A stretch of DNA of 64,000 nucleotides, from the NCBI RefSeq assembly GCF_015832195.1, contig NC_052046.1, forward strand, positions 45,704,473 through 45,768,472. The letters are read 5' to 3'. This stretch comes from Motacilla alba alba. Lineage: Eukaryota > Chordata > Aves > Passeriformes > Motacillidae. This document shows, piece by piece, positions 33,740 to 55,035 of the stretch; within the stretch, counting starts at the first letter, position 1, and every line of letters starts with the position of its first letter. The notes beneath the pieces were generated by a model that was not told the origin of the DNA, did not search any database, and was given only the letters and a program-made list of their open reading frames with translations. A program made the position numbers and the translations under genes.

Positions 33740-33745
33740 CACAAT
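33740..33745. repeat. 6-bp target duplication, left copy (CACAAT)
   Basis: CACAAT directly precedes the 5' LTR and is repeated exactly at 38395-38400, directly after the 3' LTR. Six bp is the size made by class II (alpha/betaretrovirus-like, ERVK) integrases. Confidence 0.95.
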
Positions 33746-34198
33746 TGTCGGAACCCAGGATTCTCCTCTGGGTGTCCTGGATGGCCAGAGCCGCTGGCAG
33801 GGGGCTCTGAGACCCTGGCATGCAGCCAAAGACACACGTGGGGTTTTGATCTTAGCCCGTGGAGCAAATTACCAACTCTGTATGAAGAATTACAAGCCAC
33901 ACACACAAAAGTTTAAATAGTATAGTAGAAGTAGTCACGAAGTAAAGGGTAGGATTTCTGAGTGCTGTACAGGGGGGTTTTAAGCCTTGTACGCAGGGGT
34001 CCAGGTTTTGTACATGGGGGTCAGGAGTTCTAAGATGGAGGGACTTGGGTGTGCCCTGTCCTCTTTCTTTCTCCTTCCTAACCTCCATGTCTTTGGTGGT
34101 GTTGGCACTCACAGATTGGTTTAGAGTAGAAAGTCACCATTCAATATAGATAGTAGGTATTGGAGAAAAAGTATAAACATGTAGTACGTAATATATGA

Positions 34199-34206
34199 TA
34201 TAAAAG
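34199..34206 (+). promoter_or_regulatory. LTR TATA box
   Basis: TATAAAAG lies about 100 bp upstream of the LTR's AATAAA. It is conserved at 38173-38180 in the 3' LTR and at 53237-53244 in the related solo LTR, which supports function. Confidence 0.8.
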
Positions 34207-34301
34207 ATGGCACCAGCCCCTGGGAAGGCAGAGAGTGCCTTTGTCTGAGCTGCTGAACGGGCCACAGCAGTTCAGGGAGAAGAATCTTGTAGATAACCAA
34301 C

Positions 34302-34307
34302 AATAAA
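34302..34307 (+). terminator. LTR polyadenylation signal AATAAA
   Basis: AATAAA in the context AACAATAAACAACCTTGAG. The same signal is at 38276-38281 in the 3' LTR, where it would end proviral transcripts, and at 53338-53343 in the solo LTR. Confidence 0.8.
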
Positions 34308-34422
34308 CAACCTTGAGAACAGACAACAGAAGACTACTGAGTCTTTCTTCGAAGGCACGGGTTGGAGGAGGGACTTTTCCATCTTTCGGGGTCATCCCAA
34401 TCCGGGGGTGAAACCCCACATC

Positions 34423-34440
34423 TGGCGTCCCTGGGTCGGC
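34423..34440 (+). other. Primer-binding site, tRNA-Asn type
   Basis: TGGCGTCCCTGGGTCGGC begins two bases after the LTR end, the normal position for a retroviral primer-binding site. It matches the complement of the 3' end of vertebrate tRNA-Asn(GTT) at 17 of 18 positions; the single difference is the C at position 15. Minus-strand DNA synthesis would have been primed here. The tRNA sequence is from general knowledge; no database was searched. Confidence 0.85.
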
Positions 34441-34713
34441 ACGACTGAAGCAAAGATATAAAACCATCAGACGACCTCCAAACCCAATCTGGGAAGAAGG
34501 CACACTCCGAAGTTCCAGAGAGAGAGAGCAGAGAGCCCGGAACAAAAACATCACCAAGACAAAATCGCCTCGAGAGCAGCCCGGAGAGGAAGAAAACCAG
34601 AAATGTACGTCTGGAATTCCTCGCCTGAAAAACTGCTGGACAGGGACCAGGACCATCTCCGGACCGACCTTGCGTTGATTCAGCTCTTGGTGAGAACAGT
34701 CAAAACTAAGAAC

Positions 34714-34881
34714 ATGGGGAAAGCATATTCCCAGGAACAACTCAGGGAGATTAATGGACATCTTTATCATTTAGCAACAGGGAAAGAAAACAAGGCCTTG
34801 AAACTTTTGGTTCCAGAGAGAGTAATGCGGGAGGAAATTTCGCGGAGTGCCGCGGGGGTACCTTTTATCAGCAGGCAGTAG
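34714..34881 (+). pseudogene. Possible truncated gag start (56 codons)
   Basis: An ATG 290 bp after the primer-binding site opens a 56-codon frame beginning MGKAYS, which fits the MGxxxS myristoylation signal of many retroviral matrix proteins; a longer in-frame start exists at 34603 but lacks that signal. Position and signal are the reasons to suspect gag. The rest (with a basic/helical LREINGHLYHL stretch) does not let me assign a family. The frame ends at TAG 34879-34881. It soon meets another stop, and then stays open through a segment ending RYHLQDLQGAQAHLFQLRE at about 35087. If this is gag, only its first part survives, with a stop. No capsid major homology region was found downstream. 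Confidence 0.45.
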
Positions 34882-35049
34882 AAATGACTCCCAGTCGGGG
34901 GGAGGATACCTCCTTGCCATCCGCAAGAGAGGGAATTGTCTAGCCATCCGCAGACAGGGTTTACTGTTATGAAATTAGGAGGAACAGAACTGACTCTCAC
35001 CAAAAGGTGTGGGGGGGATCGTTATCACCTTCAGGACTTACAGGGTGCC

Positions 35050-35835
35050 CAGGCGCACCTCTTCCAGTTGCGGGAAAGCGCGGCTTGAAGGACTGGGATT
35101 TTGCCTTCTTTGTGGCTTGTTCCCCAGAACTGCAGCCCGTGACAGAGGCGACGGCAGGATGGGGGGCAGAGAGATTGCAGGACGGGAGAAGGAGCTGCTT
35201 TTCGGCGGCTGGCACAGAACCCATGCCGAGGTGGCACCGGTCAGCCGGCAGCCCGGGGGACCCGCACAGGCGGCGGCGGGGGTTGCGGAGGCTGGCGGGG
35301 GGGCCACAGCGGCAGGGGGGGCGCAGCGGCGGCGGCAGCTGCGGCCACGGCGGCGGCGGCGCGCGCATGCGCAGTGCCGGCGGCAGGAGAGGCAGCAGCG
35401 GCGGGAAGCACGGACGCGGCGATTGCGCGTTCCCAGGGTGCCGTGACGCGCTCCATGCTGAGAGCCCGCGCGGCCGCGGACACGGCCGCCCGACAGGCGG
35501 GGGGGCCGCTCTCGCACTGCAGCAGCACCGCTGGCAGGACTGAGCTCATGAGACTGAGCACAGAACCGCGGATGATGCTCGTCTCGGAGCGGCAGCGCCA
35601 GTGCGCGCGCGCGTGTCGGTGGAGCGAAACCCTACCTGGTCGGGGAGGGGCAGCTCGCATGTTGTAGACGCGAAACAGGCACAGACGGGACAAGAATCGC
35701 GCGCTCGGTTGTGGACGTTGGCACGGAGCCAGGGGAGGCGGATCCCAGTGCAGAGCAGGCACAGGCAGAGACAGGACAAGGTCAGGGCGGAGATGTCCTT
35801 CAAGGCACCGCTCTGTCAGAGTTGCTAGGCAACCA
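35050..35835 (+). other. CpG-rich block inside the provirus
   Basis: Roughly 780 bp of strongly GC- and CpG-rich DNA in an otherwise AT-rich window, dense in CGG/GGC triplets between 35265 and 35420. It includes a perfect NRF-1-type palindrome CGCGCATGCGCA (35362-35373) and an RFX X-box-like palindrome GTTGCTAGGCAAC (35821-35833). Overlapping frames on both strands stay open through it only because the base composition removes stops; none shows a domain I recognise. It could be a decayed proline/alanine-rich gag segment or captured host promoter/first-exon DNA. CpGs have survived with little decay, consistent with a recent insertion or with protection from methylation. Confidence 0.75.
35362..35373. 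promoter_or_regulatory. NRF-1-type palindrome
   Basis: CGCGCATGCGCA fits the YGCGCAYGCGCR consensus of NRF-1 at every position. Such sites are typical of CpG-island promoters of host genes. Here it lies inside the CpG-rich proviral core, far from the LTR TATA box. Binding is inferred only. Confidence 0.55.
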
Positions 35836-36064
35836 CAGTAGCCAAAATTCCAGGCAGGTTTTTGGGGAAAAACAGGTCTGGAAACTTTTCCAAGGGCAGG
35901 ATGAGAAGCTTCTGAGAATTTTCACAGTGTTTTATCCAGTTTTTCAACAGGGTCAACTCCAGAAAAAAAAAAAGCAGCAAATGTTATATGGGGCAATTGG
36001 TTCAGTTCTTCCACAGGCAGGTTCCACAGAAGTGATGGCAACAGCATTTGCCAGAGGACCATGA
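35711..36064 (+). pseudogene. Unassigned open frame at end of CpG block (117 codons)
   Basis: An open frame rich in Gln/Gly/Glu at first (QAQAETGQGQGGD), then ordinary amino acid use (GEKQVWKLFQGQDEKLLRIF, a KKKKQQ basic patch, then GAIGSVLPQAG). Immediately after its stop, a second frame stays open with an acidic stretch EDHDSDAEDMDNAISAELYV ending near 36134. The two together look like one coding region broken by a frameshift. I do not recognise the protein; it may be a gag piece or part of the captured core. No catalytic or zinc-knuckle motif is visible. Confidence 0.35.
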
Positions 36065-36134
36065 TTCAGATGCAGAAGACATGGACAATGCCATAAGTGC
36101 AGAGCTCTATGTTGCAGTCAAACAAAGTTTTTAA

Positions 36135-37325
36135 GGGTTGAATTTCCAAATAGGTATTTTCATATCAGTCATTTCTTGGGATTTTATTGTTTTTCTACTG
36201 TGAAAAATGCTTCCTAGGGAAACAAAACATCATGTAAAGAGTCTGTGGGGCCATCAGCTGATTTCCCAATGGTTCAGAGTTCTAGGAATTGTTGGTATTG
36301 AGTTTGTGACCTTTGTTATTTTTAATTTTTATAAGTAATAATGATAAATAATGATGGTTGTTGATGTTATATGAATGCTTTAAAAAGATTGTTTTGTGAT
36401 AAGAATTATTGTTAAGGTATTGTATTGTTAAGGTATTGTTAAGGTATTGTATTTACAGCCGGCTTTCATGTCTTTGTGTGATAATCTTTTATCTCTTTTG
36501 TGATCATCTGCAAGACACATGTCTTTTCAGGATCCTGTCTTTTGATTTCTTAACTACTCACATGTTTTTTGAGTTTTTCTATCCAGATTGCCAGTCTCAT
36601 GGTTTTTTTCAGTCATTATTACAGAGGTACTTCAGCAGAGAATTCAGTTGTAACATTAAGTTCTTAGGTTTTTGAGTTTCAATATTGTATTAGGTAATGA
36701 GTCTTTCATGCAGCTGCACTTCTTTCACTCTCAGTGTCCAGATCCAGGTTCACAATCCTGACTGTGATGAAGTTCATATCTCTGAAGAAGAGGTTTGTTG
36801 TATTTGAAGAATCCCTATCATGTTATCTCATGGTGTGAAAGATTTCTAATCCTAAGGTTTCTTATTCATAACTGTTGTTTTTAAGAGTTTTGTTTTAGAA
36901 TGTGTTAAATGATACTCACCAATTAGAGTTCGAGCTGTGGCCAAGCTTTAGCTCTACTTGGTGGAGTGATTGACAATCAACCCAGAAATTTTCTGCATCA
37001 AAAAGTATTCAAGTCCTTTTGACTTGGCAATTTGACCATATATGACAGCTGAGCTGGTTTTCAAAGGGAGCTTGGAGAAACATGAATCCGGACATGATTT
37101 CTTCAATCTTCTGTTGTTTTAAGGTTCATCAGCTGTTGCAGACTCTGGGATGATAGTCCAATGTTGTAGTGCTTGATAATTGTGTGATTTCACACGTGTT
37201 ATTTATAGTCTGTATTATTTGGTTGATTTCTAATTACTGTTGTATTGCATTTCTCTATGCAATTTTGCAAAACAGAACAGATCAAGGTTTCATTTTCACA
37301 TCAAGACCTATTCTTCATTTTTGGG
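36135..37325 (+). other. T-rich non-coding core of the provirus, origin unknown
   Basis: About 1.2 kb with plus-strand T excess and no long frame, unlike retroviral pol or env sequence. It includes an imperfect tandem repeat of GTTAAGGTATT (36411-36452, three units). Its look is that of a 3' UTR or intron. It might be the far part of a captured transcript or an extremely decayed viral region, but the identical LTRs argue that it was already in this state when the copy was made. Confidence 0.55.
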
Positions 37326-37330
37326 ATTTT

Positions 37331-37445
37331 GAGAGGATCCTCCAGTCCCTGCGGGGACGTGGATTTGTTTGTGTTTTAACAGGCACAAAGTGCAGGTGGA
37401 TTTCAGTGAAGAATGTGAAACTGTATCAAGTGCAAGAAAACGCTG
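37331..37445 (+). pseudogene. Integrase C-terminal-like remnant
   Basis: Within an open frame (37169-37570), residues about 57-92 contain LRGRGFVCVLTGTKCRWISV followed by a basic KNVKLYQ stretch. The Gly-Arg-Gly-Phe-x-Cys-Val, then Trp-Ile, spacing resembles the end of the DNA-binding domain of class II (betaretrovirus-like) integrases. The residues before and after show no integrase features: the zinc-binding and catalytic core domains are absent. The position, 275 bp before the polypurine tract, would fit a provirus that lost nearly all of pol and all of env by internal deletion. Assignment is by eye on a short stretch. Confidence 0.45.
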
Positions 37446-37703
37446 AGCATTCAACAAGCAGAGAAGAAGACACACAGATGTGGACTGCACAGAAATTCCA
37501 AACCTTCTGCTTCACCAGTCCACAGAAGATTGCAGACTTTGGGTTTCTGCATGGGTGTGGGAATCAGTGATATTGTAGAAAATTTGTTAGATGATAGTTT
37601 TACATTTTGATAAGGCTTGTAATTCTTCTGCTCATTCAGCCATGCATTCTTCAGTGCATGTGGCAGGCCATGAATAAGGCTGCCAAAGATGTGCTTTTGG
37701 TGC

Positions 37704-37719
37704 AAAGAGAAGGGGGAGA
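37704..37719 (+). other. Polypurine tract
   Basis: AAAGAGAAGGGGGAGA directly abuts the TG of the 3' LTR, the position and composition of the primer for retroviral plus-strand synthesis. Confidence 0.92.
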
Positions 37720-38394
37720 TGTCGGAACCCAGGATTCTCCTCTGGGTGTCCTGGATGGCCAGAGCCGCTGGCAGGGGGCTCTGAGACCCTGGCATGCAGC
37801 CAAAGACACACGTGGGGTTTTGATCTTAGCCCGTGGAGCAAATTACCAACTCTGTATGAAGAATTACAAGCCACACACACAAAAGTTTAAATAGTATAGT
37901 AGAAGTAGTCACGAAGTAAAGGGTAGGATTTCTGAGTGCTGTACAGGGGGGTTTTAAGCCTTGTACGCAGGGGTCCAGGTTTTGTACATGGGGGTCAGGA
38001 GTTCTAAGATGGAGGGACTTGGGTGTGCCCTGTCCTCTTTCTTTCTCCTTCCTAACCTCCATGTCTTTGGTGGTGTTGGCACTCACAGATTGGTTTAGAG
38101 TAGAAAGTCACCATTCAATATAGATAGTAGGTATTGGAGAAAAAGTATAAACATGTAGTACGTAATATATGATATAAAAGATGGCACCAGCCCCTGGGAA
38201 GGCAGAGAGTGCCTTTGTCTGAGCTGCTGAACGGGCCACAGCAGTTCAGGGAGAAGAATCTTGTAGATAACCAACAATAAACAACCTTGAGAACAGACAA
38301 CAGAAGACTACTGAGTCTTTCTTCGAAGGCACGGGTTGGAGGAGGGACTTTTCCATCTTTCGGGGTCATCCCAATCCGGGGGTGAAACCCCACA
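37720..38394 (+). mobile_element. 3' LTR of the provirus
   Basis: 675 bp, TGTCGG...CCCCACA, equal in length to the 5' LTR and without a difference that I can see by direct comparison; overlapping frames in both LTRs also translate identically. TATA box at 38173-38180 and AATAAA at 38276-38281. The perfect match implies insertion too recent for the two copies to have diverged, or gene conversion between them. Confidence 0.96.
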
Positions 38395-38400
38395 CACAAT
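38395..38400. repeat. 6-bp target duplication, right copy (CACAAT)
   Basis: Exact repeat of 33740-33745, immediately after the 3' LTR; it confirms that both proviral ends are intact and not recombined. Confidence 0.95.
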
Positions 38401-52838: not shown

Positions 52839-52844
52839 ATTCCT
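52839..52844. repeat. 6-bp target duplication, left copy (ATTCCT)
   Basis: ATTCCT immediately precedes the solo LTR and recurs at 53419-53424 after it. Confidence 0.85.
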
Positions 52845-53418
52845 TGTCGGAACCCAGGACACCCCTCTGGGTGCCCTGGATGGCCTGAGCCCCTGACAGA
52901 GGGCACTGAGACCCTGGTATGCAGCCAAAGATACGTGCGATTTTGATCTTAGCCCATGGAGCAAATTACCAACTCTCTATGAAGAATTACAAGTCACAAA
53001 AATTTAAGTAGCATAATAGTAATTGTCACAGGGTGAAAAGGGGAATTTTGGGGATTTTAGAATGGAGGTTTGAAGTCCCAAGATGAAGGGATTTGGGCAT
53101 GACCTGTCCTTCTTCCTAGCCTCCATGATTTGGGTGATGTTGGCACTTTTAGATTGGTTTAGAATAGAAGCTGACTGTCTAACATAGGTGATAGGTAATG
53201 GAACAGAATTGTAAATATAGTACACATAGTTATTAGTATAAAAGATAGCACCAGCCTCGTGGGAGAGTAGTGTGCCTTTGGCTGACCTGCTGAACAGATC
53301 ATGGCAGGCCAGACAGAAAATGTTTTAGACAACAATTAATAAACAACCTTGAGAACAACAGCCAAAGACTTCTGACTCCAGTCATTTCGACAGCTGTGTT
53401 GGAAAAAGGACTCCCAGA
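52845..53418 (+). mobile_element. Solo LTR (574 bp), same family as the 33.7-kb provirus
   Basis: Begins TGTCGGAACCCAGGA exactly as the provirus LTRs do and aligns along most of its length: 'GATTTTGATCTTAGCCC', 'GAGCAAATTACCAACTCT', 'ATTGGTTTAGA', the TATA box TATAAAAG (53237-53244), 'GCACCAGCC', and AATAAACAACCTTGAGAACA (signal at 53338-53343). It carries many substitutions and deletions relative to the provirus, including loss of G-rich U3 segments and a different right end (CTCCCAGA, not CCCCACA). A perfect 6-bp duplication ATTCCT flanks it. It is therefore a separate, older insertion that lost its interior by LTR-LTR recombination. Confidence 0.92.
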
Positions 53419-53424
53419 ATTCCT
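53419..53424. repeat. 6-bp target duplication, right copy (ATTCCT)
   Basis: Exact copy of 52839-52844; it fixes the right end of the solo LTR. Confidence 0.85.
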
Positions 53425-55035
53425 AAAAGATTTGGAATCACATATCAAGAGTCTTTAAAACAATTTACCCCTTGAAAGTAGTGTTCTCAAAATTATTTTT
53501 AATTGGATATTAAGATTCAAAAATATATACTTCTCTACTTCATTTTCATGTTTTCAGATCACTATCAGCCTAAAGCCTGAAATAAGATTCACACTGTGTA
53601 AAGGGTCTCATTGGGTTTATGATTACATGAGTAAGTCCTATGTTGTTGGTTTTGCTGTTCTAACAACAGCAATGTACAGACATGCACATATATGCAGCTG
53701 CTAGGAAAAAAAAACACTGAGAAAGCAGATGTTTTCCTCATAGACTGAAAAGGATATTTACAGGTGATGAAGCAGGGCAACTTGAAGTAAAAGCCTTCTC
53801 ATTAGTTTCCACAACTTATTACTACAACTATTTTAGAATTGCAATGCACTTTTTATTGTGCTTTCTATTCCAACATAGCTCCGCAGCTAACCAAAAGACA
53901 GCACTACTGGATTATTTTTTCCCCTAATCTGATTGATTTATTCAGCACCACATATGCTCATTATGCTCTTGCAAACAAACAGGTGCCTCTGACTATAAGA
54001 ATATTCAAGGACCTCATCTTGTGAGCTGTTTGGGTTAATTGAAGTGTTTATCCATGACATACACAGGATCACAGGAATGGTTCCTGCTTCAGTAAGTTTT
54101 TGACGCATGCATGGCACCAGTTTAAATGAAAACATATGTAAGGAGCTAGTGAATCAGATACAAGAATCCCACTAGCAGGGGGAAAATATTACAAAAAAGA
54201 ACCACAAAAAACAAAACAACCACCAAACAAACAAACAAACAAAAAACCCCAGCAAAATGAAAGAACCTGTGAGATTCAGAATACCCTTGGCAACATTTGG
54301 CATTCAGTCCCCATTGTGTATCTTAATGCCCCTCCAAACTGAAATGCAATTCACCTGAAGAGTGATTTTAAAAAACTGGTGTTTTCAGGCAATGCTAAGT
54401 GACTACAGCATTATTCAGTAGGGGCTTTTATAGTACTGTGCATAAATCCAAAGCATTTCTGAAAAAAAAGATTGCATTGTTATATAATTACAGCTAAGTG
54501 GTTGTTAAGCTATTTTGAGTTATTACTCACAGATTCTTCAATGACCCTTTTCCGCTAAAGGTTCTCATATAGTTCTAGAAATGTAATGATACACTGCAAC
54601 AATCCAGTACTTGTCTGAATCGTGAGATAACAAAGGTAGAATTTCTATTGTAAAGAGTTATGCAACCATCTATGTTTTTATGTCCCTGCAGTGACTACAT
54701 AATAGATGTGAAGATAAGTTTTTGCACATGCTATCTTCAAAATATGAAATGTGTATCATCTTCGTAGCCCTTACATTAATAATTTTTGAAAAAGATCCTC
54801 CAGAAACATCAAATTCATATAAACACGAGTGTATGTAATGAATTCTCAAGGGCAATCAATGCATGATGCACAAGGACACCAGCAAGACTTTTTTCCTGAA
54901 CTAACACACGGCAGCTCCTAAGACTGTATTCAGCTAATTAGAAGCTAAAACTCTGGAAAAAGGTAATCTCAACCACGCTGAAGTGACGAATGCTGTTTTG
55001 CAAACCAGAAGCAGTGTGCATCAGAGAAGAAGCCA
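53425..55035. other. AT-rich single-copy DNA, no gene seen
   Basis: No supported gene. An A/C-rich (CAAA)n tract lies at 54190-54250. The right end leads into the CpG island. Confidence 0.5.
54190..54250. repeat. (CAAA)n-rich tract
   Basis: CAAAAAACAAAACAACC followed by at least four CAAA units and a short A run. Simple sequence. Confidence 0.85.

Follow-up and report, generated by a model that had tools for sequence, protein, structure and literature searches.

A CpG-dense block within a young, non-autonomous endogenous retrovirus family of Motacilla alba alba

Short non-coding LTR elements occurring beside a longer form are known from the mouse, in which the ETn elements have the coding relatives MusD. 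The element described here is likewise a short LTR element lacking coding capacity, which has its LTRs and leader in common with a longer form and is presumably moved in trans. It differs from ETn/MusD in that its longer form has no capsid or reverse transcriptase (RT) core in the frames scanned and in that its filler is CpG-dense. It also resembles the avian class II (ERVK-type) endogenous retroviruses (ERVs) in its 6-bp duplications and in the RVP, RNase_H, rve, and Avian_gp85/TLV_coat domains of the long form, but no whole gag or pol gene was found in the copies examined, and an unexplained AT-rich segment occupies part of the interior. Work on coding-competent MusD relatives is cited in an excerpt of PMC2265474. 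Crocodilian ERVs are said to carry captured KIT-ligand or nectin3 (excerpt of PMC4299795), and the present element is similarly an ERV with sequence proposed to be host-derived. The crocodilian elements hold recognisable host open frames according to that excerpt, whereas the block described here has no conserved frame or named host gene and is adjoined by gag.

Architecture of the provirus and its family

The analyzed DNA was a stretch of 64,000 nucleotides of Motacilla alba alba (NC_052046.1, positions 45,704,473 to 45,768,472; hereafter, the window). Positions 33746-38394 constitute a 4.65-kb provirus with an internal part of only 3.3 kb (Table 1). As the two LTRs are identical over 675 bp and CACAAT stands on both flanks, the insertion is recent. 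Paired LTRs with TG...CA ends and the 6-bp target duplication are those of a class II-like ERV, and intact cis signals, absence of coding capacity, and recent insertion are those of a non-autonomous LTR element. The primer site TGGCGTCCCTGGGTCGGC looks complementary to tRNA-Asn; TGGCGTCCCTGGGTCGGC or TGGCGTCCCTGGGTGGGC was present in 18 of the 19 copies printed, and the remaining one carried a further change. No Pfam family scored above the cut-off in eight frames of the window provirus (two weak matches were taken as chance), and Rfam returned no family at gathering score. A solo LTR of the same family lies at 52845-53418 of the window, showing 71% identity to the window LTRs over 52844-53378; ATTCCT, noted by eye at 52839 and again at 53419, is its candidate 6-bp duplication.

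Table 1. Features of the provirus, in window coordinates.
Feature	Position	Strand	Remarks
Target site duplication CACAAT, 5' copy	33740..33745	.	Flanks the 5' LTR
5' LTR	33746..34420	+	675 bp, TGTCGG...CCCACA; AATAAA at 34302
Primer binding site TGGCGTCCCTGGGTCGGC	34423..34440	+	After the 5' LTR
Short gag-start-like frame	34714..34881	+	55 aa, MGxxxS; from position and look
Stretch from gag start to block	34882..35059	+	Site of a nested 1.4-kb insert in copy L029
CpG-dense block	35060..35835	+	Gag start on one side, capsid/nucleocapsid remnant on the other
Degenerate GGC trinucleotide array	35269..35361	+	Within the block
NRF-1 consensus CGCGCATGCGCA	35362..35373	+	Exact
RFX-type palindrome GTTGCTAGGCAAC	35821..35833	+	Exact
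Gag capsid C-terminus/nucleocapsid start remnant	35843..36131	+	DNA match to about 36087
AT-rich, CpG-poor segment	36151..37350	+	No convincing match to the viral genes compared
Integrase C-terminus remnant	37355..37480	+	45% aa identity to L020, E 4e-9
Env transmembrane tail remnant	37598..37717	+	56% aa identity to L020
Polypurine tract	37704..37719	+	By eye; precedes the 3' LTR
3' LTR	37720..38394	+	675 bp, identical to the 5' LTR
Target site duplication CACAAT, 3' copy	38395..38400	.	Flanks the 3' LTR

The genome (1.07 Gb, 618 contigs) was searched using the block as the query. All 40 scored places, which were the best 40 of 65 candidates and included the window, matched the block at 81-100% identity; each match covered at least 685 of the 786 bases, and 39 covered at least 785. 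The initial annotation was right in regarding the block as mobile. The 40 matches belong to one ERV family as far as copies were fetched. Twenty of the 39 other scored places were fetched as 10-kb pieces, and some further copies were obtained later. The window and all 20 fetched copies share the order LTR, leader, gag start, block, and AT-rich part. Identical 6-bp duplications were found in 16 of the 19 copies with called LTR ends (of 21), and the LTR pair was free of any difference in 8 of these 19.

The family exists in two forms, with 13 of the 20 fetched copies being short like the window element and seven being long. The long form is approximately 8.4 kb (8.35-8.53 kb in the six measured), and diverges from the short form after about window position 37427-37485; beyond this point come protease, an RT-thumb-like piece (below the cut-off), RNase H, integrase, and env. 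In the long copy L020, RVP, RNase_H, rve, Integrase_Zn, IN_DBD_C, TLV_coat, and Avian_gp85 scored above the curated cut-offs, while RVT_thumb (in L010) and GP41 stayed below the Pfam cut-offs. Neither capsid nor nucleocapsid was found in the scanned frames of L010 and L020, and no RT core was found in those of L010, L020, and the window; thus, the long form looks crippled too. The AT-rich part gave a tree of 27 rows (hypermutated copy L027 left out) in which the two forms were mixed, with seven changes of form compared with 7.8 for shuffled labels, as expected if they recombine. The L020 protease as the query gave 22 places, all scored, of which 20 matched at 92-100%, including a gag-bearing relative; the others were an 81-bp match and a 67% relative (L038). 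At least 50 distinct places were counted by eye (40 + 5 + 5 new), and the protease query added three more, including the gag-bearing relative and one fragment.

Contig C212 (5.3 Mb) held 11 of the 40 scored block places and C274 held three, and the two together held 14 of the 20 protease places. These contigs could be W-linked. The bird W chromosome is described as a refugium for ERVs in an excerpt of PMC8310711.

Several copies were individually rearranged or modified. L020 (G000:C212:1162108-1172107) is a long copy followed directly by another leader and gag start, the LTR being shared, i.e., a tandem of two elements. L030 (G000:C5:3574000-3579400) carries AT-rich parts in inverted orientation before its leader, and its block abuts an LTR end directly, resembling self-integration. 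L027 (G000:C600:98660-108659) showed strong plus-strand G-to-A hypermutation, with 107 G>A against 5 A>G relative to the window in the AT-rich part; the G>A changes were mostly before G or A, C>T changes were few, and the pattern looks like editing of minus-strand DNA. In that case, the difference between its LTRs (35 of 677) is not an age. A 1.4-kb length difference in L029 (494-1908) was considered as extra gag, and this was dropped because its TGT...ACA ends and a 5-bp GTTTA repeat (by eye) suggest a nested insert, which is probably a solo LTR of another type.

No match was confirmed in viral_contigs (85 stretches fitted a pattern in one search, none confirmed) or in phage records. A literature search, of limited coverage, on tRNA-Asn primed or host-capturing avian ERVs found no description of this element family.

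The CpG-dense block and its gag surroundings

As initially annotated, a CpG-island-like block lies inside a provirus; paired LTRs and CACAAT delimit the latter. The block (35050-35835) has a GC content of 0.70 and 86 CpGs at an observed/expected ratio (o/e) of 0.93, compared with an o/e of only 0.17 for the whole window. Elsewhere in the window, the top-ranking 786-bp stretch, at 54601, carries 38 CpGs. CpG islands are commonly defined by a length of >200 bp, a GC content of >0.5, and a CpG o/e of >0.6, and the block passes on all three counts. Its edges are sharp, with no CpG in 35835-36150 and seven in the 1570 bp at 36150-37719. The NRF-1 consensus and the RFX-type palindrome reported in the initial annotation are both exact. 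The full NRF-1 consensus occurred in 0.17% of 3000 dinucleotide shuffles of the block, its looser form in 0.8%, and GTTGCNNNGCAAC in 0.27%; as the motifs were picked after reading the sequence, these rates are not clean P values.

A gag remnant directly follows the block. The stretch from 35843 to about 36087 matched the capsid end and nucleocapsid start of L038 (on C15) at 68-75% DNA identity, with a DNA score of z 8.9 against shuffles, and the open frame of L038 carries Gag_p24, Gag_p24_C, and the zinc-knuckle zf-CCHC_5. On the 5' side, the gag-start-like frame has a myristoylation-type start and ends at the same exact offset ahead of the block in 17 of 21 copies. It had no family match in Pfam, viral_contigs, PDB and protein searches, or the L038 frames, and from its position and look we infer that it is the start of gag. 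With the capsid/nucleocapsid remnant on the 3' side and the gag-like start on the 5' side, the block would be situated inside gag, where the capsid should be.

L038, whose LTR is only weakly matched, has an 800-bp CpG-dense stretch of its own on the 5' side of the capsid gene (GC 0.73, o/e 0.86), separated from the capsid by about 1.4-1.6 kb. Further relatives, at C274:767539, C2:54935144, and C3:73545805, have capsids that match L038 at 60-62%. Alignment of the block with this stretch did not exceed shuffles (z 1.6 for the whole; 1.2 and 2.0 for the halves), nor did that of the L037 block (z 0.6). Protein frames of the block and L038 showed nothing clear, the best being 0.024 of 500 shuffles for one frame, and the gag start compared with the upstream part of L038 gave 0.21-0.44. 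The protease of the closer, gag-bearing relative at C212:3557041-3558890 shares 93% identity with the long-form protease. No CpG-dense DNA was present in the 601 bp read from it, starting 160 bp upstream of the capsid match; these 601 bp have a GC content of 0.45, one open 200-codon frame, and a block score of z 0.9-2.3.

The segment at 36151-37350 is 1.2 kb long, T-rich, and CpG-poor, and is present in the 20 copies between the nucleocapsid and integrase remnants. It had no match to pro-pol-env of L020 and no convincing match to the viral genes compared, and could be the true foreign cargo. A single captured host segment reaching from the block to 37.35 kb was also considered and dropped, as the stretch after the block matched gag.

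Coding signal, motif conservation, and CpG decay

In the window copy, the longest open runs over 35060-36150 were no longer than those of shuffles (P 0.60 on the plus strand and 0.37 on the minus strand). The capsid-frame run spans the whole block in three of 27 copies (L018, 425 codons; L023, 341; L036, 445), each run being longer than all of 120 shuffles, and covers at least 80% of the block (89-96%) in five more. In 18 of the 26 copies carrying the capsid peptide, the capsid frame closes far inside the block, and the gag-start frame differs from the long-run frame of L018 and L036. Open runs exceeded shuffles at 0.05 in five of 27 copies on the plus strand and in seven of 27 on the minus strand; since the minus strand shows a similar excess, long open runs are not in themselves a coding sign.

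No codon signal was detected in the block. Of the 668 pairwise gap events among 20 copies (L027 dropped as hypermutated), 225 were multiples of three, i.e., one third, and variable sites were even across codon phases (28/26/29). Pfam gave nothing above the cut-off in the eight window frames, two block-spanning L020 frames, or four more frames (from L012, L018, and L029), a sub-cutoff DAP_epimerase match (0.0073) being taken as chance. PDB and protein searches yielded nothing credible. No host coding frame or exon structure was found in the insert, this being a coding-only test that is blind to a non-coding promoter. The block is not a gene today.

The initial annotation had offered a gag segment as the alternative to host capture and had named, as the result that would count against capture, matches to ERV gag only together with an open frame in intact copies. 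The position of the block fits the gag alternative better than capture, and the scored matches lie in the ERV family as far as fetched, but the capsid frame is open through the full block in just the three copies, with a similar excess of open runs on the minus strand.

The NRF-1 consensus was found in 21 of 21 copies of the first comparison and in three of six further divergent copies. Over 25 other copies (L027 dropped; the rearranged or deleted blocks of L030, L031, and L032 not included), six of its 12 columns were variable, and 66% of 99 CpG-matched windows have as few. The RFX palindrome was unchanged in all 25, which places it in the lowest 3.9% of windows, and it is also present in L027. 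Several 15-21-base stretches of the block were unchanged over the 25 copies.

The CpGs of the block have decayed. With gaps counted, 62% of the CpG columns in the block and at its edge are variable, compared with 27% of other columns; by substitution alone, the shares are 56% and 22%. In the block of the old copy L029, CpG transitions amounted to 0.155 per site compared with 0.046 at other C/G sites (ratio of 3.4), and the corresponding ratios, from few CpGs, were 4.3 in leader/gag and 2.4 in the LTR. Between young copies, the CpG/other ratio stood at 2.3 for the block, 1.8 for the LTR, 2.6 for the leader, and 4.5 for the AT part. The CpG transition share was lowest in the block (0.033; leader, 0.061; LTR, 0.103; AT part, 0.150), where other C/G sites were also least changed. 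Decay is faster at CpGs than at other sites, a pattern like that of methylated DNA, and the block does not stand out as clearly protected. Judged from these indirect rates, the column variability and the L029 transitions would argue against an unmethylated state, and the low CpG transition share between young copies would argue for one. A deletion showing 3 bp of microhomology, which cuts into the RFX palindrome, leaves L031 without the block. L032 (G000:C3:96652000-96658000) is without most of it, the block start being joined to the env start through a deletion showing GGGG microhomology.

Origin of the block

We favor descent of the block from gag, and as a whole we regard this explanation as evenly poised between right and wrong. 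The window element is a young member of a class II-like, non-autonomous ERV family whose own LTRs, primer site, and polypurine tract serve its movement, the enzymes presumably coming from relatives in trans. The CpG-dense block would be a non-coding passenger in dead gag, flanked by the gag start and by the capsid/nucleocapsid junction, and most likely descends from a GC-rich, fast-changing gag spacer of the virus lineage that was kept when the capsid was deleted. The CpG density of L038 ahead of its capsid and the capsid frame open through the block in three of 27 copies support such a spacer. The lack of alignment with L038, the mostly closed capsid frame, the minus-strand runs, and the relative at C212:3557041, which shows no CpG-dense DNA in the 601 bp read, speak against it. 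Read-through RNA may instead have brought in a host CpG-island promoter, perhaps with the 1.2-kb AT-rich DNA, with the element then spreading this cargo and the NRF-1 and RFX sites being relics of the host promoter. The CpG-island composition with sharp edges against CpG-poor DNA, the rarity of both motifs in shuffles, the lack of a codon signal, and the close gag-bearing relative with no block in the 601 bp read agree with host capture, and ERV capture of host mRNAs is on record in crocodilians in the excerpt of PMC4299795. Nevertheless, the gag remnant 3' and the gag-like start 5' of the block, as well as the CpG-dense stretch in the same direction from the capsid in L038, weigh against the capture of a host promoter or first exon put forward in the initial annotation. 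No host locus was found among the best 40 of 65 or the best 40 of 96 candidates, which is weak counterevidence because the candidates were filled by family copies and a single-copy host source could be missed. We consider host capture unlikely, and its specific version, in which the capsid gene gave way to a CpG-island promoter of the host, bearing NRF-1 and RFX sites and accompanied by 1.2 kb of AT-rich host DNA, and the family carried it to dozens of recent sites, decidedly unlikely.

The filler might also have arisen inside the dead gag region with no single source, by replication slippage and template switching that expanded GGC-type repeats and GC-rich sequence. The degenerate GGC array, the two deletions ending in microhomology, and the divergent copies L029, L036, and L037, in which the block, at 81-83%, is less conserved than any other internal part (84-98%), are in line with de novo expansion; as most of the 776 bp is non-repetitive and several stretches are unchanged over 25 copies, such an origin seems highly improbable. 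Whatever its origin, the block could be kept as a working internal promoter, with NRF-1/RFX binding giving germline transcription and methylation protection. The presence of both motifs in 21 of 21 copies, the unchanged RFX palindrome, and the low CpG transition share between young copies (shared by other C/G sites) would suit this role, but conservation of the NRF-1 site does not exceed that of CpG-matched windows, 3.9% of windows vary as little as the RFX palindrome, the CpG columns and the CpG transitions of L029 show decay, and L031 has lost the block. Based on these substitution data, a retained promoter would be very improbable indeed, and for the same reasons the possibly unmethylated mobile promoter envisaged initially is not supported.

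The block is real and, for an element of a known kind, unusual. It is more likely filler of the virus lineage than a captured promoter, and the tests made here lend no support to the mobile-promoter idea. If host capture were true, the family would seed ready-made CpG islands across the genome. A young multi-copy element with a 750-bp CpG-dense block is a natural test of whether CpG density alone blocks methylation and starts transcription, and as the copies differ in age and one is without the block, the comparison is possible inside one genome. The family also serves as a warning that CpG islands predicted from composition in such genomes may be viral passengers.
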